A stretch of 64,000 bases of DNA from Singulisphaera sp. GP187 (GTDB lineage Bacteria; Planctomycetota; Phycisphaerae; Phycisphaerales; SM1A02). Positions 32,503-59,703 of the stretch are shown here, piece after piece. Numbering within the stretch: the first letter of the stretch is position 1; each line of letters opens with the position of its first letter. The stretch is taken from positions 1 through 64,000 of the forward strand of contig CAMAXY010000002.1 in the NCBI GenBank assembly GCA_945862215.1, given 5' to 3'. The notes beneath the pieces were generated by a model. That model saw only the letters and a list, made by a program, of their open reading frames with translations. It searched no databases and was not told where the DNA came from. The position numbers and the translations under genes were made by a program.

Positions 32503-34053
32503 TCAACTCCATCCCGAAAGAACAATGGCAAGATCGATTCCACTGACTATCCCGTCTCGGTTGATATCAGCAACAGGGTTGTCGGTGGTTCCCCATCCTG
32601 CAAGCACGAATGCGAGATCCGTTCCGTTGATAAAACCATCTTCATTTACATCGCCAGGCAAAGTTGGATTTGCGCCGACCGAGCCATCGTTTCCAATGCG
32701 TTGACCTTTGATATCAGCCGATCCAGTTGCGCCATCGCTCCACACCACGACCGTTGCGGCTGATTGACGATATGAAACCATTTTACTTTTGCTGCTTGCT
32801 CCGTCGACAAGAACGGCTCCGCTTGACCATGCATTCGATCCGTCATCGTTCAATCGGCGGGCGTAGAGCGACGCTTGTCCAGATGCAGCTGATGATTGCC
32901 ATGCGAATGTTGCGCCACCGCCGCAACGTACTGCTGTGAAGTCTGCGGAATAGAGAGTTGTTGGCGGCAAGAGACTCGCACCAGATTCGCCCCACAATCG
33001 TGTTCCGGTTCCATTCAAAGCGAATGATTGCGCGGCGACGCTATATGTAGAAGTATTTGGCACTTGCTCTGGCCAGACAACATAAACGCGATTGGTTGGG
33101 CCATCTGCTGCGAAAGTTGGGCTGACACGATTGAGCGTGGTTGATGAAGTCACAGCGGCTCCATTCGCACCAAACTGCGCAACGCCTGCAGTATTGAGAA
33201 CTTGGACATAGCTCTGAAGTGGACCTGACGTGTACCAGCAGAAAACATAACCAACTCCATAGACCGATTGGCAATTTGGATAGTTTCCGAATTGGAGCGA
33301 TCCCGTCGAGAACACGACAGAAGGCGCCGTGCTTCCCGCAGTCCATCCAACGACGCCTGTAGGAGAAATCCTCCACGCCTTAATAGTTTTTGCGCCAGTG
33401 AATCCAACTTGGCGCACGCACGAAAGCATCACGCCACCAGTTGCATCTGCAGCGGGCCAGAGATCTGCGTTCCAAGTTTGCGCAGTGCCATCTTGAATAG
33501 TGACAGGCGTCGACCAGATTGCGGCGCCAGTCGTAACATCAAACTTTTGAACTTTGCTTGCGGAATTCTCGAGCCATGAACCATAGATCGATCCATCAAA
33601 TGGATCTTGACAGACCTTTGGATTGGCGACAGATGCACCAGCTGTGCCGAGCGTTGTCGTCCACAAGATTGCGCCAGCGTCACTGAGCAAAGAAAAACTG
33701 ATTCGATCTCCACCGAGTCGATCGTCGTTGTAGGCAACCGCAAACTGATTTCCGCTGACAACCCACGAACTGTAATCAACCGTCGAGGAAAAACTGCGAT
33801 CAGCAACAAGCACGCCGTTCGCTCCCCACATCGGCATTCCAGATGCATTGAATCGATTCGCGCGAACGTCATATCCACCTGTTGCGTTGTCGAACCACGA
33901 CATGCAAAAACCGCCGTCGGTGGTGCCGCTCATTTTCGCTTGAACTTGATCGTTCGCTCCTCCACCGAGCGTTGTTGAAGATGATGGTGTCCAAGCCAAG
34001 CAAGCTGCCGCAACACAAACCAAGCATGCACCGATAACGACCTTTGTTTTCAC
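32503..34053 (-). CDS. Secreted protein with C-terminal dockerin-like calcium motif
   Basis: The 516-residue protein has a signal peptide (MKTKVVIGACLVCVAAACLA) and a long beta-rich body with repeated elements such as WSSGAVLVDGASS and MVSYRQSAATVVVWSDG, suggesting a beta-propeller. The last ~55 residues (GDVNEDGFINGTDLAFVLAGWG ... DINRDGIVSGIDLAIVLSGW, the first copy near 465) form a pair of Asp/Asn-Gly calcium loops each followed by a helix, like a type I dockerin. Two other proteins in the window end the same way. The role of the body is unknown; it is probably extracellular. Confidence 0.85.
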   Translation of the reverse strand: MKTKVVIGACLVCVAAACLAWTPSSSTTLGGGANDQVQAKMSGTTDGGFCMSWFDNATGGYDVRANRFNASGMPMWGANGVLVADRSFSSTVDYSSWVVSGNQFAVAYNDDRLGGDRISFSLLSDAGAILWTTTLGTAGASVANPKVCQDPFDGSIYGSWLENSASKVQKFDVTTGAAIWSTPVTIQDGTAQTWNADLWPAADATGGVMLSCVRQVGFTGAKTIKAWRISPTGVVGWTAGSTAPSVVFSTGSLQFGNYPNCQSVYGVGYVFCWYTSGPLQSYVQVLNTAGVAQFGANGAAVTSSTTLNRVSPTFAADGPTNRVYVVWPEQVPNTSTYSVAAQSFALNGTGTRLWGESGASLLPPTTLYSADFTAVRCGGGATFAWQSSAASGQASLYARRLNDDGSNAWSSGAVLVDGASSKSKMVSYRQSAATVVVWSDGATGSADIKGQRIGNDGSVGANPTLPGDVNEDGFINGTDLAFVLAGWGTTDNPVADINRDGIVSGIDLAIVLSGWS

Positions 34054-41030: not shown

Positions 41031-44000
41031 TTAGTTACACAATCCCCACGCAGAGAGCAGGATTGCCAGATCAAGACCATCGACGACTCCATCGTTGTTG
41101 ATGTCCCCTGCGGCTGCCTTTCCACTTGTTGCCCAAGAAGAAAGAACAATCGCCAGATCAAGCCCTCCGACGGTTCCGTCGCCATTGAGATCAGCGTCGC
41201 AACCACAAGAAAGAACGCCATCGCACTCATCTGGCACGCCATTGAAATTGCAATCGTTGGGCAAGATTCCATCGAACCCTTCTGCGCGCACCAACACATT
41301 GGCCTGCGTCAAGTAACCGTAGATCACCGACGCAGACAAGTTATTGATGTTGACTGTGCCGATTGACCCGAAAGAAATCCAACTGCGGAACAATGGCCCG
41401 CTCAAATCCGCCGGCGTCACTGCTTGATTCCCATACGGATCTTGGAAGTACACGCCAACAAAGAATGATGTTCCTGCTGGTCCGACTTCGGTAGGCGTGA
41501 TGAACGTGGTGTGGAAGATGCTCGTGTTTGGATCGCGGACAGTCGTGCTTGCTTGCGCGATCACTTGTGCGTCATTGGGAATTCCGTCGCCGTTTGGATC
41601 ACTCCAAAGAATCACCTCATATGGATGAGACGAAATGCCATTACCGATGACAACTGAAATGCCACCGATCCACTCGCTTCCAGCCACCGTGTTGAACTGA
41701 TTCAGCCACACAAGGTCTGCTGCGGCAGTCACTCCATAGTTCCCTTCGCGAGTTCCATCATCAAGTAGATAAACACTTTCAGTTGGTGGGTCGCCTAATT
41801 GACATTCGTCTGGAATCCCATCGCTTTGACAGTCGAGGCTGAACCCCGTTGCAATATCCGTGCTGTCGATCAAGCCATTCTGATTGCAGTCTTCGCACTC
41901 ATCCGGAATTCCAGATCCATTGGAATCTTGACTCTCTCCAGATGTGAGATCGCAGGAATCCAAGATCCCATTCTCATTGCAATCTTGATTCACCAATTGG
42001 CAGAGATCGGGAATGTTGTCATCGTTGCAATCTTGCGAAAACAAACTTGTTTGACATTCATCCGGGATGCCATCGAGTTGGCAATCGGGACTCGTACCGT
42101 TTGCGATATCTACGTTGTCGAGCACTCCATTCTCATTGCAATCTTCGCATTCGTCTGGCGTGCCAGATGAGTTGACATCTGCGCTGATCCCGTTGGCGAT
42201 ATCACAAACATCGAGTTGATTGTTGATATTGCAGTCATTCTGTCTGCGAAGCGAGACGCCTCCAAGAATCCACTTGCCTGGGAATGGCAGCGAATCTTCT
42301 AAGCGTGAAAATTCCTCTGCTCCATCAGCAAGAGCGTTGGGGTTGATGGTGGAGTTCTTGCCAATGATCCACGACCGATTGAATATGGCTGCGCCCGATG
42401 TGTCGACTGCTGCGGGGAACAAGGATGTGACCGCATTTGTATTGGTAATCGCTCCGACAAAGAATGATGTTCCATTGGGACCTACATCGATATCCGCGAT
42501 ATCAAAGCGGCGCATTTGGCTCAGTGGCGCGGCAGTTGTTGCCACGCTTGCGAGAACTTGCGCATCATCTGGAATGCCATCGTTATTTGGGTCAGACCAA
42601 AGGTAGACGGTGACTGGATGGTTGTCAGGCATCATTACAAACATGCATTCGATTGCAGTGATGAGATTCGCGTTGTCCGCGACACGGAACTGTGTCAACC
42701 AGGCCATATCAGTTCCAATAGAGCGCACCCCAAATTCAGGTCCAGTATCTGACAGACGGTAAAGCTGCGGTGTGAGAATCTGGCAGATGTCGAGTGCGCT
42801 GTTCAAGTCACAGTCCAACGACGGGTCTGCAGCGATGTCGCAGCTATCAACAATTCCGTTCGAATTGCAATCTCCAACAGCGAGTTGGCAATCATCTGGA
42901 ACGCCGTTCTGATCGCAATCATTGTTCGTAAGTTGACAACTATCAAGCACGCCATCTTGATTGCAGTCTGGAGCGCCTCCAGTAATTTCGCACGCGTCTG
43001 CAGTACCGTTGTTGTTGCAATCCGGTTCGCAAACATCCAGAACACCATTGGCGTTGCAATCACCGAATCCAGAATCTAAATCGCAGCCATCTGGAACGCT
43101 GTTCTCATTGCAGTCCGCAGTTCCTGGACGAGCAAGTAGCAATGCAGGTTCGAGAGCACGACCACTGATTCGAAGTTCATCCACCGATCCTTTTACGCGC
43201 TGATTGAACTGTCCCGTTGTGCTGGTGTGTGCGCCAATCACGAGTGGGGCGTTCGTCAGAACCCGTCCTTGACTGAGGAACATCACCTTGTCCATCTGTT
43301 GATCAAGAACAAATGTGACCTCACTGCGTCCTGCATCAAAAATGGCGGCGACATAGTGCCATTGATTGTCCGAGATGGAAAGCCGACTTGAAACTGTCCA
43401 GAAACTTGAATTCGCAGTTCCTCCATTTCCAAAAACAAGCGCAATACTCTTTTCATTCCACTGCGATCCGAAGTTGCGAATTCCAACATTGGGATAATCG
43501 GCAGCCTGCACAAGGAACATCCAATCGAGGAACTTATCGCCATCCGTCAGGCGCTTGCGCTGAACTAATGTTTGACGACCTTCAGATGTCGATCCCGTTG
43601 CAAGCGTGTCAATCTTGACCCACGCCTCGACAGTAAAACTATTGCCATTCGAAGCGCACTCTCCTTGCGGATCGTTCACCACGAAATGCCCAGTGTTGTT
43701 TGATGATGGTGCCAGCCCAGTCGCACTTTCATTCTCTTGGCTTGTTGCGGGCACAAACTGATTTGGGCGAGAGGTCGAAGGCAAAAGTCCAACACCATTT
43801 CCGGTGAGACCAAAGGGTCCAGAATCCACAACCTGCTGACTCGACTGCTCGAACCTCCAATAGCCGCTGACATCTGCTGCTGTGGGTTCACAGGAATCAA
43901 TGATGCAGTTGTGATTGCAATCAATGGCTGCGCCAGTTGCAATTTCTGTGCTATCTGCAATTCCATTGGCATTGCAATCGCGGGTCAAATCGGGGATTCC

Positions 44001-45020
44001 ATTTGCATCGACGTCGGTCATAGGTTGAAACGCGCTCGTCGGCACGGGACTGCGTGCTTGGCCCGACGGCTGCCATTCGAGAAATACGCGAGCGTCGCCA
44101 CCACCTTCGTAGTAATCCACACGAAATGCATATCGCTGACCAGCCACAAGAGTGACAGTCCCTGCAATCCACTCGAGCGCGCTTTGGGGAACCCAAGCAT
44201 CTATCACGGGAAGTCCATTGATCCACAATCGGAAACCATCATCACTGCGAGAGAAAAAGGTGTACACACCTGACGTTGGCGCAGTCAGCGTGCCCATCCA
44301 ACGCACAGAAAATTCGTTCTGTGGAACGAGCGGATCGGGCGACCCCCCTGCCCAGTCAAATGAAATAGTTGGATCGATGCGGACAAGAACCCGTCGTCGA
44401 AAATCTCCAGCCTGACTGACTTCATCGTCAAAGTACTGCGCAATCAAGCCGGTAGCAAACAAAGCTTCGTCTGAATCTGCCATACCGTTTCCATCGCCGT
44501 CTTCACAATCCTGACACTCATCAGGTACTCCGTCGAGATTTGCATCCAACGATGTGCCCGATGAGATGTCCAAATGGTCTGCGATGTTGTTGCCGTTGCA
44601 ATCTGCAAAATCGAAAAACACAGACGCATTTGATTTGTATTCAAATGGCGCATCGTTTCCAAATCGCTCAAATCTGCGCGGTGAAAAATCTGCTTGCGGA
44701 GCGACGAGTTCGGCTGCCGATCGCGCTGTTGGAGGAAATTCAAAAAGTTGAAGCGAAGGAATCTGTGCGGGGCGCGCGGCGGCCTTCTTGGATGACTGTG
44801 TGGATGAATCGGCGGCTGAAACGGTGTCATCCACGCGATTGACTCCCACCCACGAGGCGCGACTATTGCTTTGAATCTCCGTGACTTCGATCTGATCCGT
44901 GTTTTCGTCTTGGCTTGGGCGAGGGGAAATCGCTCCATCAACAACTGGACTCTGTCCTTGTGCTACTACTGACAAGCCAAGAAGCAGAGCAAAAATAATT
45001 ATTTTATTTAAATGAGACAT
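41031..45020 (-). CDS. Giant secreted multidomain protein: PA14, LamG, thrombospondin-3-like repeats, dockerin-like end
   Basis: A 1329-residue protein. It has a signal peptide (MSHLNKIIIFALLLGLSVVAQG), a disordered segment, a first CN-x-NG-x-x-D repeat near 135-180, a PA14 domain (about 190-330, DDGFRLWINGLPVIDAW), a LamG-like lectin domain (about 390-640, SFTVEAWVKIDTL), and many Cys-Asp-x-Asn-x-NG-x-x-D-x-C-x-I repeats resembling thrombospondin type 3 calcium loops. Two copies of a ~110-residue domain (LWSDPN-DGIP-DAQV ... GTSFFVG) lie among these repeats. It ends with the paired motif DLNGDGTVGGLDLAIVLSSW / DINNDGVVDGLDLAILLSAWG. Probably a calcium-stiffened extracellular glycan-binding protein. 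Confidence 0.88.
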   Translation of the reverse strand: MSHLNKIIIFALLLGLSVVAQGQSPVVDGAISPRPSQDENTDQIEVTEIQSNSRASWVGVNRVDDTVSAADSSTQSSKKAAARPAQIPSLQLFEFPPTARSAAELVAPQADFSPRRFERFGNDAPFEYKSNASVFFDFADCNGNNIADHLDISSGTSLDANLDGVPDECQDCEDGDGNGMADSDEALFATGLIAQYFDDEVSQAGDFRRRVLVRIDPTISFDWAGGSPDPLVPQNEFSVRWMGTLTAPTSGVYTFFSRSDDGFRLWINGLPVIDAWVPQSALEWIAGTVTLVAGQRYAFRVDYYEGGGDARVFLEWQPSGQARSPVPTSAFQPMTDVDANGIPDLTRDCNANGIADSTEIATGAAIDCNHNCIIDSCEPTAADVSGYWRFEQSSQQVVDSGPFGLTGNGVGLLPSTSRPNQFVPATSQENESATGLAPSSNNTGHFVVNDPQGECASNGNSFTVEAWVKIDTLATGSTSEGRQTLVQRKRLTDGDKFLDWMFLVQAADYPNVGIRNFGSQWNEKSIALVFGNGGTANSSFWTVSSRLSISDNQWHYVAAIFDAGRSEVTFVLDQQMDKVMFLSQGRVLTNAPLVIGAHTSTTGQFNQRVKGSVDELRISGRALEPALLLARPGTADCNENSVPDGCDLDSGFGDCNANGVLDVCEPDCNNNGTADACEITGGAPDCNQDGVLDSCQLTNNDCDQNGVPDDCQLAVGDCNSNGIVDSCDIAADPSLDCDLNSALDICQILTPQLYRLSDTGPEFGVRSIGTDMAWLTQFRVADNANLITAIECMFVMMPDNHPVTVYLWSDPNNDGIPDDAQVLASVATTAAPLSQMRRFDIADIDVGPNGTSFFVGAITNTNAVTSLFPAAVDTSGAAIFNRSWIIGKNSTINPNALADGAEEFSRLEDSLPFPGKWILGGVSLRRQNDCNINNQLDVCDIANGISADVNSSGTPDECEDCNENGVLDNVDIANGTSPDCQLDGIPDECQTSLFSQDCNDDNIPDLCQLVNQDCNENGILDSCDLTSGESQDSNGSGIPDECEDCNQNGLIDSTDIATGFSLDCQSDGIPDECQLGDPPTESVYLLDDGTREGNYGVTAAADLVWLNQFNTVAGSEWIGGISVVIGNGISSHPYEVILWSDPNGDGIPNDAQVIAQASTTVRDPNTSIFHTTFITPTEVGPAGTSFFVGVYFQDPYGNQAVTPADLSGPLFRSWISFGSIGTVNINNLSASVIYGYLTQANVLVRAEGFDGILPNDCNFNGVPDECDGVLSCGCDADLNGDGTVGGLDLAIVLSSWATSGKAAAGDINNDGVVDGLDLAILLSAWGLCN
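41800..43090. repeat. Imperfect DNA repeats encoding calcium-binding TSP3-like units
   Basis: Related 36-42-base units with the recurring core ATTGCAATC plus GA/CA-rich spacers encode successive CN-x-NG-x-x-D-x-C blocks. They fall in two clusters (about 41800-42240 and 42780-43090), with shorter stretches near 43900-44000 and 44480-44600. The copies differ at many bases, so they are coding repeats and not a tandem satellite. Confidence 0.75.
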
Positions 45021-53050: not shown

Positions 53051-53095
53051 GAGTGAGAGGATAAGTGAACAGATGGAAACAGCACGACGGTCCCG

Positions 53096-53101
53096 TACAA
53101 T
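53096..53101 (+). promoter_or_regulatory. -10-like TACAAT before the DciA-like gene
   Basis: TACAAT ends 11 bases before the ATG at 53113, leaving room for a 5' leader of only a few bases. It supports the 53113 start over the longer frame beginning at 53065. No clear -35. Confidence 0.4.
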
Positions 53102-53112
53102 TGCTGCGCGCT

Positions 53113-53481
53113 ATGGGAAATCCTCTTGAACATCTTCATGATCTGCAAAAACGGCGTGGCGCAAGAAGTGCAAACACGATCCCTGTCGATTCGATCCGTA
53201 GTGACATCACTCGACTCAGAACGACTGTCGAAAAACACGCGCAAAGATTTGGAGATGCTGCTGAATTATGGGAGCGATTCATTCCCGCAAATGTTCGAGA
53301 TGACACGCGCCTCTCAGGAATCTCTGGCGGTGTGCTGACCGTCGTGACCGGATCTGCGGCGACGAGCTATACGCTTGATCGAATATTGCGCGGCGGGGTT
53401 GATGCTGAAATTCGAAATGCAAGCGCAGGCAAGATCACTCGGGTGAGAATGCGCGTCGGGCAAGTCAACCCGCCGCAATAG
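53113..53481 (+). CDS. DciA-like protein (DUF721)
   Basis: A 122-residue protein. The C-terminal half carries the DUF721 pattern: ELWERFIPANVRDDTRLSGIS, GGVLTVVTGSAATSYTLDRI and an ITRVRMRVG end. DciA proteins of this family act as loaders or operators of the replicative helicase in bacteria lacking DnaC/DnaI. The N-terminal third is helical and charged. I use the ATG at 53113 (MGNPLEHLHDLQ); a longer form from 53065 is possible. It is divergent from the ABC gene, and its 3' end overlaps the convergent thioesterase gene by 17 bases. Function by family; not near dnaA or gyrB here. Confidence 0.75.
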   Translation: MGNPLEHLHDLQKRRGARSANTIPVDSIRSDITRLRTTVEKHAQRFGDAAELWERFIPANVRDDTRLSGISGGVLTVVTGSAATSYTLDRILRGGVDAEIRNASAGKITRVRMRVGQVNPPQ

Positions 53482-53866
53482 GAGCGCCACTCCAATTTGC
53501 TGGCAGAGGTTGCACGCGACCATCACGATCAATACATGCGAGTGTCGTTTCGCCAATCACAAGTTCTTCATCGCCTCTGCAAAGTCGATAGGAATGTTCG
53601 ATCTTCACATGGCCGACATCGCGCAGCGTGGTTTCGAGCACGAGCAATTCGTCATATTTCGCAGGCTTGCGATATCGCACATCTAAGCGCGTGACAGCCA
53701 ACAATATCCCGCGCGCTTCAAGATCGGCGTATGTCGAACCACTCGCACGCAACAATTCCGTTCTGCCCATCTCGAACCAAATTGGATAGACCGTGTGATG
53801 CACGACGCTCATCGGATCACACTCGCAGTAGCGCGGCCGAATTTCCATTTTGTGGATCTTGGTCAT
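53465..53866 (-). CDS. Acyl-CoA thioesterase, hotdog fold (YbgC/4HBT type)
   Basis: A 133-residue single hotdog domain. The start has RPRYCECDPMSVVHHTVYPIWFEMGRTELLR, where the D-x3-VVHH segment corresponds to the catalytic Asp region of 4-hydroxybenzoyl-CoA thioesterase-like proteins. The rest matches YbgC (LDVRYRKPAKYDELLVLETT, TLACIDRDGR). It likely hydrolyses short-chain or aromatic acyl-CoA. AAGGAAGG touches the ATG at 53866, and a TATATA element lies just before it. A second ATG is six codons in. Its last 17 bases overlap the DciA-like gene. Confidence 0.88.
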   Translation of the reverse strand: MTKIHKMEIRPRYCECDPMSVVHHTVYPIWFEMGRTELLRASGSTYADLEARGILLAVTRLDVRYRKPAKYDELLVLETTLRDVGHVKIEHSYRLCRGDEELVIGETTLACIDRDGRVQPLPANWSGAPIAAG

Positions 53867-53895
53867 CCTTCCTTTATATAAGGATTCACGATTTT

Positions 53896-54000
53896 ATGGA
53901 GTTTGACTTTTTACTTGCAGCTGAAGCTAGATTTGTCGAAAAATCAATTGAACTCTCCGAACTAAATGGGTTTCTTAAATGCTGCAAATGCAAAATATAA
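53896..54000 (+). CDS. Possible small protein, 34 residues, Cys-rich end (uncertain)
   Basis: An ATG frame preceded by AAGGA about 12 bases upstream encodes MEFDFLLAAEARFVEKSI... ending GFLKCCKCKI, with three Cys close together near the end. It is too short for statistics, and the region is A+T-rich, so it may be chance. If real, it would be a leader peptide or small protein made ahead of the rhodopsin. Confidence 0.2.
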   Translation: MEFDFLLAAEARFVEKSIELSELNGFLKCCKCKI

Positions 54001-54125
54001 GGCCATAGTAAATCCAGAAATTTAAAGTTTTTAGGTTCTTCTAAAATTCGTGTTATTTTCATTTCAAGCCTCGCCAGAACAGAAGTGTGCATATCCTTGG
54101 GGCACTACAAACCTGGAAATAGCGA

Positions 54126-54142
54126 TTGACCTTGTTGGTCAA
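54126..54142. promoter_or_regulatory. Inverted repeat TTGACC-n5-GGTCAA in the rhodopsin leader
   Basis: Six-base arms with a 5-base spacer, 26 bases before the rhodopsin start codon. It could be a small operator or a weak stem near the ribosome binding site; the left arm also looks like a -35 box, but no -10 follows at the right distance. Confidence 0.3.
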
Positions 54143-54156
54143 AAACTAGAACCACT

Positions 54157-54161
54157 GGAGG
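54157..54161 (+). promoter_or_regulatory. Shine-Dalgarno site of the rhodopsin gene
   Basis: GGAGG lies 7 bases before the TTG at 54169. Strong sites are rare in this window, so it stands out and supports the TTG start over the ATG at 54190. Confidence 0.7.
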
Positions 54162-54168
54162 ATTCACC

Positions 54169-54966
54169 TTGTTGACTCTCGCAGCAGAAATGACCACCAC
54201 CATGAAGGCTCTGAATGCAGGCCTTTCAATGGAAGGCGTAACGATGTATCTGTTTTGGCTTAGTACCGTCGCTATGGGCGCAGGAATGATTTACTTTTTT
54301 CTTCAACGCAAGACCGTTCCGGTGCAATACCAGACCGCGATTACTGTGGCCGGCATTATTTGCGGCGTTGCTGCTTTCCATTACTGGAGAATGAGCGGTA
54401 TTTATTTGGAAGGCGTTGCGAGCTTGTTCAATGAAGATGGAACACGAATCGCAGGCGCAACCATAACGCAATTCCCAACTGCGTACCGATATATTGATTG
54501 GCTAATCACAGTTCCATTGCTTGTGATGGAGTTCCCACTTCTGCTTAATTTGGGAAAAGCCGGGCGCGAACTATTCAAGTCACTGCTTTTCTGGTCCTTT
54601 GTTATGTTGATCACCGCTTGGGTTGCGGAAGAAAGCGTTACTGGAAGTCAACAATGGTGGACATGGTATGTGGTTTCATGCGGCGCTTGGCTGTACATCG
54701 TCTATACGCTGTTCACCAAGGTCTCGGATTCCATGAAGTCTGCCCCTGAAAGTATTCAAGAAAGTTTGAAGACGATGCGTATGTTCGTGCTCGTTGGTTG
54801 GGTGATTTACCCAATTGGTTTCTTGATGGCTCTCAATGGTGGCAATGGCGAAAGTTGGCGCGAAATTTTGTACAACGTGGCTGACGTCATCAACAAGGTT
54901 TTCTTCGGCTTGGTTTGCTACCAAGGCGTAAAGGTTCTAGGACAACAACAGCACCAAAAAGCCTGA
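54169..54966 (+). CDS. Proteorhodopsin-like light-driven proton pump
   Basis: A 265-residue seven-helix microbial rhodopsin. The helix C motif RYIDWLITVPLLVME gives Asp110, Thr114 and Glu121, equivalent to D97/T101/E108 of proteorhodopsin (acceptor Asp and donor Glu of outward proton pumps). Lys243 in DVINKVFFG is the retinal Schiff-base lysine, with Asp239 as counter-ion. His71 (FHYWRM) matches the His that pairs with the acceptor Asp. Leu118 corresponds to position 105, predicting green absorption. Tyr167 lies where carotenoid-binding xanthorhodopsins have Gly, arguing against an antenna. The TTG start follows GGAGG by 7 bases. The blh gene downstream would supply retinal. Confidence 0.95.
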   Translation: MLTLAAEMTTTMKALNAGLSMEGVTMYLFWLSTVAMGAGMIYFFLQRKTVPVQYQTAITVAGIICGVAAFHYWRMSGIYLEGVASLFNEDGTRIAGATITQFPTAYRYIDWLITVPLLVMEFPLLLNLGKAGRELFKSLLFWSFVMLITAWVAEESVTGSQQWWTWYVVSCGAWLYIVYTLFTKVSDSMKSAPESIQESLKTMRMFVLVGWVIYPIGFLMALNGGNGESWREILYNVADVINKVFFGLVCYQGVKVLGQQQHQKA

Positions 54967-54985
54967 GTCCCTGGACATATTTAGT

Positions 54986-56053
54986 TTGAAACTCGCCCCG
55001 CCTGCCGCCGCCGAGTTCGATGGATCCAAAAGATCCGCCGAACAGGTGGCGAAGGCGGGGCTTTTCATTTTTGCAAGCGCGCGCATATTGCCTTGGTGCA
55101 TTTTGCTTTTTGGTGTGTTGAGCGCATTGATCAATCCCGCATCTACCAAATCAATGGCGCCGTGGCCGTTTGTGATCGCATTGTTTGTATTCGGCATGCC
55201 CCATGGATGCGCAGACTGGATTGTGGCGGCACGGCTTTCTGGGCGAAAAACATTTGAGCAAAAAATCAGGGGATTTACAAGTTATTTGTCTCTCATGCTT
55301 GCAAGCTTGGCACTTCTCGCGTTGCTGCCGGGTGTCGCTGCCTTATTGTTTCTGTGTTTAACCATTTTCCATTTTGGCATGGCCGATGCAACTGCGGTGC
55401 ATGCAGACAAGGATGGATTTGTTGCAAACTGGGGATTGGCGCTTGGTCGCGGAATACTTTTATTGAGCACGGCCTTTGCGTCGCATCCTGTTGCAGCATG
55501 GGCACCATTTGAGCAAATTGGAATTGCATTCAGCGCATGGCAACAGAGTTCCGCAAGCGCGTGGATCCCTACATCAAATCAAATCCACCCATTTGCAGTC
55601 ATTGGTGTTGTCGCAGGAGTACTACTTGCTCTTGCAAGCGCGATAGAACGCTTGCGCCGCGGACACGCCAAGGCAGCGATTGCTGATCTCATTGAAAATG
55701 GATTCGTTGCCGCTATGGCGGCGCTTGCGGATCCATTATTCTCGGTCGGTATTTTCTTCCTTGGGGTGCATGCATTCAGACACACTCGTCGCTTGGCGTG
55801 CACGAGCTCCATACTTTCATTTCATTGGGCACCAAAAGATTTAATGACCCGATTGATCCGCGTGCATGTCATAAGCCTCTCGTTGTTGTGGCCCACTTTG
55901 CCCTGCCTGATTCCACTGTGTTTACTGCTTGGTGGATTCAGCGCAAACTCGATTGCTGTTGCGAGCATTAGCTTCTATATGATCACAACGCTGCCGCACC
56001 ATTTGCTTGGCTTGCGTTTACCTGCTGCCGATTTATTGCCAGCCAGGGAATGA
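54986..56053 (+). CDS. blh: Brp/Blh-family beta-carotene 15,15'-dioxygenase
   Basis: Cleaves beta-carotene to two retinal molecules, the chromophore for rhodopsin. The frame encodes up to 355 residues, strongly hydrophobic (about 8-9 helices), with the family's His landmarks: GMPHGCADW (His73), IFHFGMAD (His129), FLGVHAFRHTRRL (His262/266) and TTLPHHLLGLR (His338/339). The start is unclear. The TTG at 54986 precedes a strong hairpin that would then encode residues 4-25; GTG at 55046, or later TTG codons such as the one in RILPW, are alternatives. It lies 19 bases after the rhodopsin gene and converges on mnmE with a 4-base gap. Carotenoid synthesis genes are not in the window. Confidence 0.9.
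   Translation: MKLAPPAAAEFDGSKRSAEQVAKAGLFIFASARILPWCILLFGVLSALINPASTKSMAPWPFVIALFVFGMPHGCADWIVAARLSGRKTFEQKIRGFTSYLSLMLASLALLALLPGVAALLFLCLTIFHFGMADATAVHADKDGFVANWGLALGRGILLLSTAFASHPVAAWAPFEQIGIAFSAWQQSSASAWIPTSNQIHPFAVIGVVAGVLLALASAIERLRRGHAKAAIADLIENGFVAAMAALADPLFSVGIFFLGVHAFRHTRRLACTSSILSFHWAPKDLMTRLIRVHVISLSLLWPTLPCLIPLCLLLGGFSANSIAVASISFYMITTLPHHLLGLRLPAADLLPARE
54995..55073 (+). terminator. 67-nt long hairpin with U-rich tail between rhodopsin and blh
   Basis: Stems nest in order: GCCCCGCCT (54995-55003) with AGGCGGGGC (55053-55061); CGCCGCC (55006-55012) with GGTGGCG (55045-55051, one G-U); GTTCG (55015-55019) with CGAAC (55039-55043); GGATC (55022-55026) with GATCC (55032-55036). 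TTTTCATTTTT follows. This is a strong intrinsic terminator or attenuator after the rhodopsin gene, and it lies inside the 5' end of the blh reading frame. Confidence 0.85.
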
Positions 56054-56057
56054 CAAA

Positions 56058-57473
56058 TCACTTTCCGATGCAGAATCGTGCGAACAGTGCAGCAAGCACA
56101 TCGTCTGGAGTTCGATGACCCGCAACGATTCCAAGCGCATCGAGCGCGTCGCGCAATTCCATCGCAATAATCTCTGCAGGCTCTGCAGCACGGCGCCCCG
56201 CATCGACGCACGCTTGTGCCGCATCGCGCGCTTGTCCCATCAAAGTCTGCGCATCAGCAAGTGCTGACCGATGCCGTGTAAGCAGAACTGGGGCGAGTCT
56301 CGCTCCACCAACCCAGCCTCCATCATCGACCGCTGCCGTGAGCGCTTCGCGAAGTTCTTCGATGCCATCGCCATTCAACGCGCTTGTCATGCAACCACCC
56401 TGCACTTTGGCTTGCGCGAGACTTCGATCATCTGCGCAGTCTGACTTCGTCCACACAGTCATCATTCGTGGGCCACTCATAGCCTGCGCATCGACTGAAA
56501 TCGGGACGCAATTCAATTGCAAAGTTGCTGCATCAAACGCATGCTGCGCAAGTTGTTGCATTTGCTCTGCAAGCGCATGCTGTGGATCTTCAATTCCAGG
56601 CAAGTCAACCAGCAATGCTTCTCGGCCGCGGTTTAGTTTGAGAGTTTCGACAATCGCATCGCGCGTCGAGCCTGCTTGAGGTGATGTGACAACGCGTTCA
56701 TGCCCAAGCAGTGCATTAAAAAGGCTCGATTTTCCAGCATTTGTCGCGCCACGCAGCGCAATGACAGGAAGCGCGCGCAGCGATTCTTCGGGAGTTGTTT
56801 GATTGACCGCTGCGGAAAGATCGTCCTGAACCGCGGCGATTCCAGCCGCAAGGTCGACTGCAGTAATTGCAACAACATCTTCTTGGTCACTGAAGTCGAT
56901 GCCAGCTTCGACAAGCGCAAGCAATCCAGTAATTTCCTCTGCGGCTTTCAACGCAATCTGCCGAATGCGCCCAGTGCGCAATTGTCGCGCTGCATCCAAT
57001 TGCGAATCTGATTCGGCAGAAATTGAAAGTGCGATCGACTCCGCTTCCTCCATGGAGAGCGTGCCACTGAGAAATGCGCGAGCACTGAATTCGCCTGGCG
57101 ATGCATGGCGCGCGCGCATTGCGCCCATTTCGGAATCGCACAGCGCATCAACGACTGCCGTCAAAAGTGAAGCATGTCCTGCGATCAAAAATTCGACAGT
57201 CTCTTGCCCCGTGAAACTTTGCGGAGCAACCATCACAAGTGCAAGTGCAGGGACATCAACCCTTTGTCCACATATCGACACAGCGATGCGAACGGATTGC
57301 ACTCCTCGGCGAGCGATCAATTTTTCTTCAACAAGTCGCTCATTTACAATCGCAAACGTCGCATCGCCGCTGATGCGCACGATGCCGCGCGCAGCAGAAC
57401 CTGGCGGTGATGAAATCGCCGCAATCGCATCGGATGCTGACGCGGTCTCGACCCAGTTCGAGGGCTCGGGCAT
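56058..57473 (-). CDS. mnmE: tRNA modification GTPase MnmE (TrmE), variant switch II
   Basis: With MnmG it modifies the wobble uridine of several tRNAs (cmnm5U). The 471-residue protein has the folate-binding N-terminal domain (SDAIAAISSPPGSAARGIVRISG), helical domain, G1 GATNAGKSSLFNALLG, GSTRDAI (G2), G4 TKSD, and the C-terminal CIGK whose Cys is essential in the family. G3 is unusual: DLPGIED for DTAG, and the Glu at the E. coli 282 position, used for GTP hydrolysis, appears replaced. The ATG at 57473 follows yidC by one base. The yidC-mnmE order is conserved in many bacteria. Confidence 0.93.
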   Translation of the reverse strand: MPEPSNWVETASASDAIAAISSPPGSAARGIVRISGDATFAIVNERLVEEKLIARRGVQSVRIAVSICGQRVDVPALALVMVAPQSFTGQETVEFLIAGHASLLTAVVDALCDSEMGAMRARHASPGEFSARAFLSGTLSMEEAESIALSISAESDSQLDAARQLRTGRIRQIALKAAEEITGLLALVEAGIDFSDQEDVVAITAVDLAAGIAAVQDDLSAAVNQTTPEESLRALPVIALRGATNAGKSSLFNALLGHERVVTSPQAGSTRDAIVETLKLNRGREALLVDLPGIEDPQHALAEQMQQLAQHAFDAATLQLNCVPISVDAQAMSGPRMMTVWTKSDCADDRSLAQAKVQGGCMTSALNGDGIEELREALTAAVDDGGWVGGARLAPVLLTRHRSALADAQTLMGQARDAAQACVDAGRRAAEPAEIIAMELRDALDALGIVAGHRTPDDVLAALFARFCIGK

Positions 57474-57474
57474 A

Positions 57475-59703
57475 TCAGCCTCTGGCTTTGAACTTCTTGT
57501 TTGTTTCACGCTTTGATTGCGCGCGTTCCAAAGCTTTCTCGTACAACTTTCCAATTGCGTCGCGCGTCTTGGACTTCTTCACAACGACTGGCTGATCCTT
57601 TGTCATTTCAATGTATCGGCGCACGCGCTTACTCTCCCAAATTCCTACAAGCGTCGAAGTCATGATGTACAAAGTCAATCCAGATGGAGCGGCATAAAGC
57701 ATGACAGGGAACATAACAACTGTCATGATCCGCATCATCTTCTGTTGTTGTTCCTGTTCAGGAGTTTGCTGAGTCGATGGCGGCGGCGCCATGTATTTCT
57801 GCTGAATATAGAAAACGCCACCCATCAGTAGTGGAACAAGATTGATACTTGCGAGAGAGAAAAAGTAAAGATTGATCGGAGTTGGCAGTGTGATGAATCG
57901 GTCCTGCGCGCTGAGATCGCCAAGAAAATTCCAGCCACCCAAAAGTTGGAAGACGCCGAAAAATGCTGGCTGTTGGCGAAGTTCGAATGCCAGATACAGA
58001 ACGGCATACAGCGCCATCCAAATTGGCATCTGCAGGAATGTTGGCAGGAATCCACCAAGACACCCGACTGGATTCACACCCTTCTCTTTATAGAGCCGCA
58101 TCTGCTCTTGCTGCATCCGCTTTGGATCGTCACCATATCTCGCCTTGAGTGCATCGAGTTCTGGCTTCATCTCCGCCATTCCTCGAGTCAAACGCTGCAT
58201 TTGCACTTGCGACTTCTTGCTGATCGGATGCAAAATGAGACGCACGACAAGTACAAGCGCGATGATTGCCAGCGCCCAATCAAACACAACATAGTTATGT
58301 AGGAAATCCAAGAAGATAACCATCAAATTTGCCAGCCACGCAAATGTGCACCATGAACAACATCCACCCATCGAATAGACAATGAGCCCTGACATTTCAA
58401 GCGCGCTATAAGGAGGAACGGTGGAAAGGATCACATGATCCAGAGGTCCCGCAAACAAGCCCATCGAAAAATCTGCCGTCTGTCCAGCCGCAACTGTGCG
58501 CTCCGGCGAATGCAGCTCGATAAATAGCGTTGGCGCACCTGTTGTATCTGTGGGACTTGGATCGCCAAGCGATGCACGAATGGACTCAACCGATAGTGCA
58601 AGCGACTTGCTTGGAACCCCTTTCGCAGTCGGCAGCATTGGCGCATGCACTGCAAGCGAAAAATATCGATTGGTCGTTCCAAACCAACTCAGGTGCTGAT
58701 CTTGTTCTTTCTGCTCTGGACTCGGCCATACATCAAATTTTGCAGCGGTGACATTTTTCACAACCGCAGCGCGTTCAAGCATCGAATCGTGGGTGATCAC
58801 AGAAGTCTGCGCTGGATCGCGCCGTTCGCTCATCAAATATCCAAACTGAAGACGACGAATATCCATCATCTCGTTCGCAACCTGCGTCAGATCTCCAGGG
58901 CCGTATTGCACAATGCTGATCGTGTGTGTCGCGGCGGAAAGATTTTCGACGGTCTGCGAAAGCGTGATGTCGTATCCATCGCCCTGTTTCGTTTGCAAAG
59001 CAAAAACACGCCGAACTTTCAACACTGGCGTTCCCGCATCATCGACAAGAAGTGTTTCGAAACTTCCGGGAGATTGCTGAGACCAGACAGCACCAAAGAG
59101 CGAAGTTGATTGACCATCGACCTGAATCGAATGCGCAGCCAACATTGGTACAGTGAAACTTGCGAGCGTTCCAACTGGCGCAAGAAAGTATCTGTTGCTT
59201 ACATCCGGCAAGGGTGGAATTGTGTTTGCGCCAGATGCGATTGCAGTTGCGTTGCGAATCGCGGCGGTGCGATCAGATGCGTTCACCCAGAATTCGCTAA
59301 AAACTATTTTGCTAATTCCTGCGCCAGCTGTCGAGAAATCAATCGTGAAGCGATCGTTGGCTGGATCGAGCGAACCAACACTTGCCGCAGTCGAAATTGC
59401 AGCGCCTGATGGACGAGCCTTCAACTTTGTTGTTGTCACTGCTGGAGAAACTGTCGCAGTTGGCGCATTCGGTGGGATCACTGCAGCAGACGCAGAGACA
59501 GGGGTTGCAGTAGCGGGCGCAGCCGAAGCAGCTGCATTCGTTGCAGCCTCTGCGCTTGCAGGAGGTGTGGAGCTGGCCGCCGGCGAATCCGCAGCTTGTT
59601 TCGATTTTGCGGCTCCCTTCCCTGTCATGACAATTGTCACGATGCTTGCAGCGAATGAGATGACCAACAGCGTCAGAAGTAATTTTCGAGTTCCCTTATT
59701 CAT
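57475..59703 (-). CDS. yidC: Membrane protein insertase YidC
   Basis: Inserts and folds inner-membrane proteins, alone or with SecYEG. The 742-residue protein has an N-terminal helix (LLLTLLVISFAASIVTIV), an Ala/Pro-rich linker (about 30-90), a large periplasmic beta domain, and the conserved core from about residue 460: VVRLILHPISKKSQ (with the groove Arg), RLTRGMAEMKPELDALKARYGDD, GCLGGFLPTFLQMPIWMALY. The C-terminus is basic (KRETNKKFKARG). It is larger than E. coli YidC (548) mainly through linker and periplasmic part. The ATG at 59703 is set by the first helix. rnpA and rpmH are not adjacent here. Confidence 0.95.
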   Translation of the reverse strand: MNKGTRKLLLTLLVISFAASIVTIVMTGKGAAKSKQAADSPAASSTPPASAEAATNAAASAAPATATPVSASAAVIPPNAPTATVSPAVTTTKLKARPSGAAISTAASVGSLDPANDRFTIDFSTAGAGISKIVFSEFWVNASDRTAAIRNATAIASGANTIPPLPDVSNRYFLAPVGTLASFTVPMLAAHSIQVDGQSTSLFGAVWSQQSPGSFETLLVDDAGTPVLKVRRVFALQTKQGDGYDITLSQTVENLSAATHTISIVQYGPGDLTQVANEMMDIRRLQFGYLMSERRDPAQTSVITHDSMLERAAVVKNVTAAKFDVWPSPEQKEQDQHLSWFGTTNRYFSLAVHAPMLPTAKGVPSKSLALSVESIRASLGDPSPTDTTGAPTLFIELHSPERTVAAGQTADFSMGLFAGPLDHVILSTVPPYSALEMSGLIVYSMGGCCSWCTFAWLANLMVIFLDFLHNYVVFDWALAIIALVLVVRLILHPISKKSQVQMQRLTRGMAEMKPELDALKARYGDDPKRMQQEQMRLYKEKGVNPVGCLGGFLPTFLQMPIWMALYAVLYLAFELRQQPAFFGVFQLLGGWNFLGDLSAQDRFITLPTPINLYFFSLASINLVPLLMGGVFYIQQKYMAPPPSTQQTPEQEQQQKMMRIMTVVMFPVMLYAAPSGLTLYIMTSTLVGIWESKRVRRYIEMTKDQPVVVKKSKTRDAIGKLYEKALERAQSKRETNKKFKARG

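Follow-up and report, generated by a model that had tools for sequence, protein, structure and literature searches.

Rhodopsin phototrophy is usually taken to need beta-carotene and retinal. The canonical proteorhodopsin cassette holds a rhodopsin gene, crt genes and blh, and a crt-containing cassette has been described for most rhodopsin-bearing Verrucomicrobiota (PMC10284914). An uncharacterised verrucomicrobial rhodopsin clade, 'P4', is reported from 43 assemblies, and its members are said to be likely proton pumps (PMC10284914). Green-light rhodopsins of freshwater Planctomycetes are also known, one of five being in Phycisphaerae (PMC6461901), and further Planctomycetes rhodopsins are in print (PMC13043013); the main text of PMC6461901 has none of the words 'carotenoid', 'carotene' or 'retinal'. 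Rhodopsin bearers without known retinal genes have been described as well (PMC7734400). We analysed the first 64,000 nucleotides of contig CAMAXY010000002.1 (hereafter the window) from Singulisphaera sp. GP187 (assembly GCA_945862215.1; Planctomycetota, order Phycisphaerales), in which a rhodopsin gene is followed head to tail by a Brp/Blh-family gene (together, the doublet). The locus differs from the bearers of PMC7734400, in which blh is missing, in that blh is present and a route to its usual substrate was not found.

The doublet is most likely a laterally moving two-gene phototrophy unit, in a clade common to Planctomycetota and Verrucomicrobiota. Tentatively, and as a possible reading that falls short of probable, we favour a mobile pump-plus-Blh unit that would be fed by a product of the host's C30 carotenoid pathway and not by host-made beta-carotene.

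Carotenoid genes in the host and its relatives

Profile searches of the whole genome (G000; 2.79 Mb in 112 contigs, 93.5% complete, the window being part of contig C2) gave one match to PF01036 (rhodopsin) and one to PF15461 (Brp/Blh). The initial annotation had read the pair as a minimal light-energy unit provided that beta-carotene is made elsewhere in the genome. The only two squalene/phytoene synthase (SQS/PSY) genes of G000 lie side by side with hpnE. For one of the two the top family is HpnC (255.7 bits, which passes the cut-off), for the other HpnD (234.7 bits, below the cut-off of 278.6); hpnE scores 399.7 bits against HpnE, over cut-off. Phytoene synthase crtB was thus not found in G000, hpnC and hpnD being the only candidates, and no lycopene cyclase match to PF05834 or TIGR03462 (CrtYc/d) was obtained, CruA not having been searched for. 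The proviso did not hold up, and the lack of a beta-carotene route, which the initial annotation had named as what would speak against its unit, is what we found for the enzymes searched, CruA not among them.

To place G000 among its relatives, rhodopsin and crtI-family scans were made over 151 genomes of the order (taken as the same 151 in both scans, since the handles agree). A rhodopsin match was present in 23. In 18 of these, including the window's own genome, the rhodopsin is at least 52% identical to that of the window (type B); three (G007, G053 and G074) have one at 28-30% identity (type A), G035 has two distant ones, and G038 has a fragment below the family cut-off. No full-length PF05834, no TIGR03462 match and no separate crtB were found in the 18 type-B genomes, again with CruA outside the search. 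Full-length lycopene cyclase was found only in the three type-A genomes (173-186 bits) among the 34 order genomes tested, which are 43 less nine rhodopsin-free ones. The type-A cassettes (L054, L055, L058) consist of rhodopsin, crtI, crtB, crtY and blh, so the searches detect a C40 pathway where one is present. The window resembles this canonical arrangement in having rhodopsin and blh in one locus; it differs in its distant rhodopsin and in that crtB, a C40-type crtI and crtY were not found in G000 (CruA not searched for).

SQS/PSY genes form an adjacent pair in 13 of the 18 type-B genomes. In G135 two contig ends carry one such gene apiece, G093 has three pieces, G132 and G012 have one squalene-synthase-like gene each, and G081 has none. 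Family models, run on G000, G132, G012 and the named locus L136 only, matched the genes of the last three best to TIGR01559 (squalene synthase), below cut-off. Adjacent hpnCD-type pairs occur equally in four rhodopsin-free congeners of the window's genome (G045, G051, G105 and G123).

Contigs C65 and C54 of G000 carry a crtI-family gene, an aldehyde dehydrogenase gene, a second crtI-family gene (crtP), which lies in pieces at the ends of the two contigs, an acyltransferase gene and a glycosyltransferase gene. A C30 route from squalene has been reported for Methylobacterium and Planctopirus, and its tailoring genes match this set (PMC10448405). With hpnCDE, the crtN/crtP pair, aldehyde dehydrogenase, acyltransferase and glycosyltransferase, G000 has the same gene content as those clusters; the cited part of that report links them to no rhodopsin, whereas crtN stands beside the rhodopsin-blh doublet in some relatives of the window, not in the window itself. 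The set is unbroken in G123, G023, G065 (adjoining hpnCDE), G012 and G099, and was also found in annotated plasmids of Microvirga and Azospirillum. In a desaturase tree, the G000 crtN belongs to a 16-row clade that is separated with support 100/100 from six C40 CrtI references, three of them from Pantoea, Thermus and Roseobacter and one from each type-A cassette. As predicted from gene content, C30 carotenoids are the sole carotenoid type for which G000 shows a recognisable pathway. The evidence favours C30 carotenoids or scavenging over host-made beta-carotene.

All 18 type-B genomes have a crtI-family gene above cut-off, as do 38 of the 128 rhodopsin-free order genomes (Fisher 4e-9, kinship uncorrected); within the family the counts are 14/14 versus 13/32 (8e-5, likewise uncorrected). 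An alignment of 17 type-B proteins used as query in named genomes returned 66 loci, and a crtN-type desaturase lies in the flanks of seven of them (L129, L132, L133, L136, L145, L146 and L147), titled Phycisphaeraceae, Pirellulaceae, Verrucomicrobiaceae and Akkermansiaceae. It is the immediate neighbour of the doublet in six. In L129 and L132, crtN and a squalene-synthase-like gene are divergent from rhodopsin, and in L133 crtN is divergent; in L136, crtN and a squalene-synthase-like gene lie upstream, about 2 kb off. Rhodopsin, blh and crtN are co-directional in L145 (whose contig ends within crtN), L146 and L147. If each genome has two copies and loci are taken as independent, a rough Poisson model predicts about 0.6 crtN across all flanks and 0.1 directly adjoining the doublet, where six are seen. 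All seven linked desaturases fall in the C30 CrtN clade (100/100) in separate parts, and starred branches force at least two changes. A type-A-like crtB or crtY was the best match in none of the 66 loci.

The type-A genomes G007 and G074 carry two more crtI-family genes outside the cassette, so in them a C30-type background stands alongside the C40 cassette and is no substitute for it.

Probable insertion and lateral movement of the doublet

Both genes lie where the initial annotation had placed them, a complete rhodopsin and then the Blh enzyme between housekeeping genes, with DciA/thioesterase on the left and mnmE/yidC on the right. The flanking genes include those for an ABC ATPase, a 4HBT thioesterase, MnmE and YidC, and the DciA-like gene scores 22.7 bits, slightly under the Pfam cut-off of 24. 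The features of the locus are as follows.

53065-53481, plus strand: DciA-like gene, left flank, member of the conserved block (profile match, synteny)
53465-53866, minus strand: 4HBT thioesterase gene, left flank, directly after mnmE in four congeners (profile match, synteny)
53867-54168, no strand: AT-rich leader (36.8% GC), from thioesterase start to rhodopsin start (sequence)
54157-54162, plus strand: Shine-Dalgarno-like GGAGGA, 6 nt 5' of the rhodopsin TTG start (sequence)
54169-54966, plus strand: rhodopsin, 265 aa, TTG start, D/T/E motif, K243, Ala150 and Phe218 in the pocket (PF01036, alignment, model)
54986-56053, plus strand: predicted Brp/Blh-family carotenoid 15,15'-dioxygenase, 355 aa, TTG start (PF15461, histidines)
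54995-55061, plus strand: RNA hairpin just 3' of the blh start codon, then a T-rich stretch (folding, covariation)
56058-57554, minus strand: mnmE, right flank, stop codon 4 nt from the blh stop (profile match, junction comparison)

The four congeners have no match to rhodopsin or blh. The order YidC-MnmE-4HBT is kept in all four, and the whole block from phosphoesterase to fucosidase in three, the contig of G051 ending inside the block. Their gap from mnmE to the thioesterase gene is about 20-50 nt. In the window and in two very close named loci, L084 and L085 (rhodopsins 100% and 98% identical), the doublet sits at this point, oriented opposite to its neighbours and with the blh stop 4 nt from that of mnmE; both flanks can be seen in L085, and the one with mnmE in L084. 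In the closest copies at other sites (L087-L090), the DNA shared with the window begins at 54106-54156 and ends at 56035-56044, covering just the two genes; L086, L088 and L090 share upstream DNA with one another. The leader at 53867-54168 is not in the congeners' mnmE-thioesterase junction, and the nearest other doublets share only its last 13-63 nt. The doublet looks recently inserted between mnmE and the thioesterase gene, and insertion is likelier than repeated precise loss because four congeners are without the doublet and copies elsewhere have other neighbours. Gene order in relatives, which the initial annotation had proposed as a way to tell a recent acquisition from an old trait of the lineage, thus answers for a recent one.

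Lateral movement is also reflected in sequence identities and trees. Compared with G072, G023, G008 and G135, the window shows 42-48% identity in MnmE (partial matches for G008 and G135) but 82-86% in rhodopsin and 52-58% in the adjacent Blh. The named loci include planctomycete metagenome-assembled genomes (MAGs) with rhodopsins 75-100% identical to the window's, three Verrucomicrobiota MAGs (L102, L105, L106) at 77-78%, Phycisphaerales that are marine by name at 52-55%, and further Verrucomicrobiota at 42-61%. Submitters' MAG titles are partly doubtful: the rhodopsin of L139, titled Flavobacteriaceae, is identical to that of L138 (Verrucomicrobiales). Planctomycetota and Verrucomicrobiota are intermixed in the trees of both proteins: the branches with good support require no fewer than 3 and 4 label changes for rhodopsin and 4 and 5 for Blh, these being quick protein trees to which bin label errors can add label changes. 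The type-B clade may equal the 'P4' clade.

Plasmid carriage of the doublet was considered and rejected. PLSDB plasmids gave no match to the window Blh, and their rhodopsin matches are all below 60% identity (23.5-30.4% among the 12 matches listed).

Elsewhere in the window, two large proteins with type I dockerin domains are encoded at 41031-45020 and 32503-34053; the 1329-aa dockerin protein additionally has PA14 and laminin-G-like domains.

Rhodopsin, Blh and the hairpin

The rhodopsin scores 148.4 bits against PF01036 (cut-off 24.6). Its residues D110, T114 and E121 form the D/T/E motif, and K243 is the Schiff-base lysine (window numbering), which is present in all 65 type-B rows of the rhodopsin tree and pocket table (the window, 62 named loci, G012 and G062, with fragments L113, L121, L142 and L149 omitted). 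We take L118 to be the proteorhodopsin colour-tuning site and H71 to be the counterpart of His75, the matching bacteriorhodopsin and proteorhodopsin numbers being assumed. Since D110, T114, E121, H71, L118 and K243 match what is known of proteorhodopsin, the protein is predicted from its residues to be a green-tuned, outward light-driven proton pump. The D/T/E residues and the PF01036 match bear out the proton-pump-type rhodopsin that had been annotated at first; the genome is Phycisphaerales-like, going by the titles of its kin.

The closest solved relative by sequence is the Exiguobacterium sibiricum rhodopsin (ESR; 4HYJ, E 1.1e-50), which is also the best fold match of the AlphaFold model (mean pLDDT, the predicted local distance difference test score, 91.3), with template modelling (TM) scores of 0.78 by query and 0.92 by target length and 37% identity. 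In the window rhodopsin the proton-donor residue is Glu, unlike in ESR, and the positions of Ala150 and Phe218 are taken by Gly and Tyr in ESR. The donor-site lysine of ESR, its site taken from the alignment, recurs in 8 of the 65 members (L112, L136, L141 and L143-L147), where it replaces Glu. L112 is titled Phycisphaerales and the other seven fall in one mostly verrucomicrobial branch, so the donor may have changed more than once.

Two pocket positions distinguish type B. Phe218, at the site of bacteriorhodopsin Trp189, is present in 65/65 type-B rhodopsins, and the three type-A proteins have Tyr; position 150, at the bacteriorhodopsin Gly122 site, is Ala in 64 and Ser in one, and Gly in the three type-A proteins. 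Both sites presumably sit at the ring end of the bacteriorhodopsin pocket. Phe218 and Ala150 would fit an altered ring pocket, which they do not show. A carotenoid antenna of the xanthorhodopsin type was also considered as what might lie behind the crtN link. By homology, Tyr167 of the window protein presumably stands at xanthorhodopsin position 156, the fenestration site, in a numbering that we assume; Tyr, Phe or Trp occupies it in 65/65 type-B rows. As a glycine at this site marks carotenoid-antenna rhodopsins (PMC13043013), the bulky residues make an antenna carotenoid unlikely.

In G035, which belongs to another family of the order, two further rhodopsins (L076, L077) show 22-24% identity and have Asn aligned to the counterion site; they are perhaps not usual proton pumps. 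A PF15461 match adjoins one of the two.

Blh scores 94.5 bits against PF15461 (Pfam BCD; cut-off 28) and 94.3 bits against TIGR03753, one bit short of the cut-off of 95.25. The metal ligands of the 66A03 Blh are H21, H78, H188 and H192 (PMC9227343). Compared by position, His73, His129, His262 and His266 of the window Blh may correspond to these: the order agrees, and so does the spacing within the first pair and within the last, but the third interval differs. Across the alignment, H73, H129 and H262 are kept in 67/67 rows and H266 in 61/67, with more distant type-B Blh proteins being 21-40% identical to the window copy. In every named locus whose contig is long enough, blh comes next after rhodopsin. 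No solved relative of Blh was found: the sequence search gave just three weak hits (E 0.034-0.042), all on a polyketide synthase, and the fold search reached at best E 0.31, with no TM above 0.23 among the matches listed, so no structural inference on the Blh substrate pocket is drawn.

G072 has a second, solitary blh away from rhodopsin (L063:6569-7636, contig C7, minus strand), whose product is very near the L104 Blh in the tree (branches 0.024 and 0.023), so blh may move without rhodopsin. In another pair, L107 and L108, one contig is binned as a delta-proteobacterium and its Blh is nearly identical to that of a planctomycete MAG (branches 0.006 and 0.004), the rhodopsins being further apart (0.014 and 0.1); this pattern reflects either misbinning or recombination inside the doublet.

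Between the two genes, after the rhodopsin stop and inside the blh frame, a hairpin at 54995-55061 has 27 pairs, with five more at 54987-55067. The window RNA at 54985-55080 folds at -54 kcal/mol (z -6.6). Against dinucleotide shuffles, a z of -3 or lower was reached in 51 of 61 sequences (the window and 60 named loci) and missed in L093, L102, L106, L110, L112, L118, L129, L132, L143 and L144; six loci were skipped, five as too short (L086, L113, L121, L142, L149) and L131 for an unknown base. Among controls, which are mechanical longest open reading frames of at least 150 aa, uncurated, z -3 was reached by 8/75 genes and by 0/19 pairs in which the next gene is on the same strand and at most 150 nt away. 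In 16 close sequences, hand-picked from 23 folded, 11 of 17 consensus pairs changed on both sides, and none of 500 shuffles matched this covariation. In the 25 close loci listed, no stop interrupts the blh frame across the hairpin; three of them, L102, L105 and L106 (Verrucomicrobiota), are without the leader encoded by it. AlphaFold confidence is low for the first 30 Blh residues.

By eye, the element resembles a plain intrinsic terminator in several more distant relatives. It has no Rfam match at gathering threshold. Within 53400-56200, a scan for sigma-70-type consensus gave no site against 2.6 expected in shuffles, and three terminator-like sites were found against 3.2 expected, the hairpin not being one of the three. 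Among the literature matches listed for proteorhodopsin or blh hairpins, no text contains 'proteorhodopsin' or 'blh'. We infer that the hairpin may act as a throttle, terminating or processing the transcript so that rhodopsin mRNA stays high and blh is expressed at a low level.

Possible sources of the chromophore

The reading that we tentatively favour would run as follows. The doublet would move laterally and would have landed here between mnmE and the thioesterase gene, and its rhodopsin would pump protons outward in light. Blh would act on a product of the host C30 pathway, for example 4,4'-diapolycopene, and 15,15' cleavage of that compound would give two C15 polyenals. By structural reasoning, the C15 aldehyde would keep the retinal double bonds from C5 to C15, without the rest of the ring, and could form a Schiff base with the rhodopsin as a ring-less chromophore. 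The long hairpin would keep rhodopsin mRNA high and blh low, whether by termination or by processing. Going by the title of a 1984 paper from Crouch et al. (cited in PMC6849744), acyclic retinal analogues reportedly support pumping in bacterio-opsin. That a natural rhodopsin system works without retinal, with Blh-made ring-less C15 polyenals as the chromophore of a pump clade in Planctomycetota and Verrucomicrobiota, is less likely than not, though a real possibility.

Several observations weigh against a C30-fed doublet. The well-studied 66A03 Blh is listed with ring-bearing carotenoid substrates only (table in PMC9227343), so a C30 substrate would need changed Blh specificity. A crtN lies near the doublet in only 7 of the 66 loci, and not in the window; the seven fall in two rhodopsin clades, which implies few independent linkage events. 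Both the co-occurrence and the linkage of crtN also fit shared photoprotection needs or life in light. Lineage drift could account for the pocket changes, which are small, and several GC-rich relatives have a weak T-run 3' of the hairpin or none, so termination is not the sole possible role of the hairpin. Partial PF05834 matches of 19-33 bits occur in 9 of the 18 type-B order genomes, not in G000; they span 34-148 N-terminal positions out of 380, and in five genomes they exceed the cut-off of 23.4 bits. We read these as other FAD (flavin adenine dinucleotide) proteins. Cyclase and SQS/PSY searches were also made in 49 named genomes, which stand for the 66 named loci less 15 taken as order genomes already included, L113 (same MAG as L094) and L149 (a fragment), G007 being searched as well. 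PF05834 matched in 20 of the 49, over cut-off in 12 and at full length in two, G190 (the doubtful L139 bin) and G196 (L145). SQS/PSY genes, which in most Verrucomicrobiota could serve either squalene or phytoene synthesis, are present in 43 of the 49. The MAGs are moreover incomplete, G000 at 93.5%.

The main rival of the C30 reading is scavenging, in which beta-carotene or a beta-apocarotenoid from nearby algae or cyanobacteria would be imported and Blh would turn it into ordinary retinal, so that no crt genes are needed. We regard this as possible, slightly less so than the C30 reading. It accords with the Blh family membership and conserved histidines, and some isolate names among the close relatives point to lakes (LacPavin, pond_D8); exogenous retinal is used by a blh-less actinobacterium (PMC7734400). 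It leaves unexplained, however, why crtN-type genes stand beside the doublet in some lineages and why, within the order, every genome with a type-B rhodopsin also has a crtI-family gene. A hidden C40 route, with HpnC/HpnD accepting geranylgeranyl diphosphate, CrtN having C40 activity and a CruA-like or new cyclase, appears unlikely. Desaturases of the CrtI/CrtN superfamily can be promiscuous, CruA was outside the enzymes searched, and the partial PF05834 matches in half of the type-B order genomes, G000 not included, could be counted for such a route; the lack of full-length PF05834 and of TIGR03462 in all 18 speaks against it, as do the hpnCD-type pairs that the rhodopsin-free congeners have equally.

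It is improbable that type-B Blh is a helper, such as a carotenoid-binding or membrane-stress protein like BrpA, instead of a pigment dioxygenase. BrpA, with its reported salt tolerance, offers a precedent (PMC4110020), and the low identity of the distant type-B Blh proteins (21-40%) would suit a helper; yet the putative metal-binding histidines are kept (H73, H129 and H262 without exception, H266 nearly so), and blh follows rhodopsin wherever a named contig reaches far enough. Least probable is an ordinary cassette whose crtB and crtY lie in the missing 6.5% of the assembly: although G000 is in 112 contigs, with one crtI-family gene split across C65 and C54, the other 17 type-B order genomes are likewise without a full cyclase and without a separate crtB.

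Among the literature matches listed for rhodopsin with C30 carotenoid, retinal or squalene, no title joins rhodopsin and C30 carotenoids, and a C30-derived chromophore would be categorically new. A pump clade in two phyla, in hosts without a recognised beta-carotene route and in some cases beside C30 desaturases, poses a testable question, namely whether a microbial rhodopsin has a natural non-retinal chromophore or whether these bacteria live on scavenged carotenoid. If the C30 reading is true, rhodopsin, blh and crtN would make a complete phototrophy operon in any squalene-making host, and two genes would suffice for phototrophy in a host that already makes C30 carotenoids, which would fit the patchy, laterally spread distribution of the doublet.

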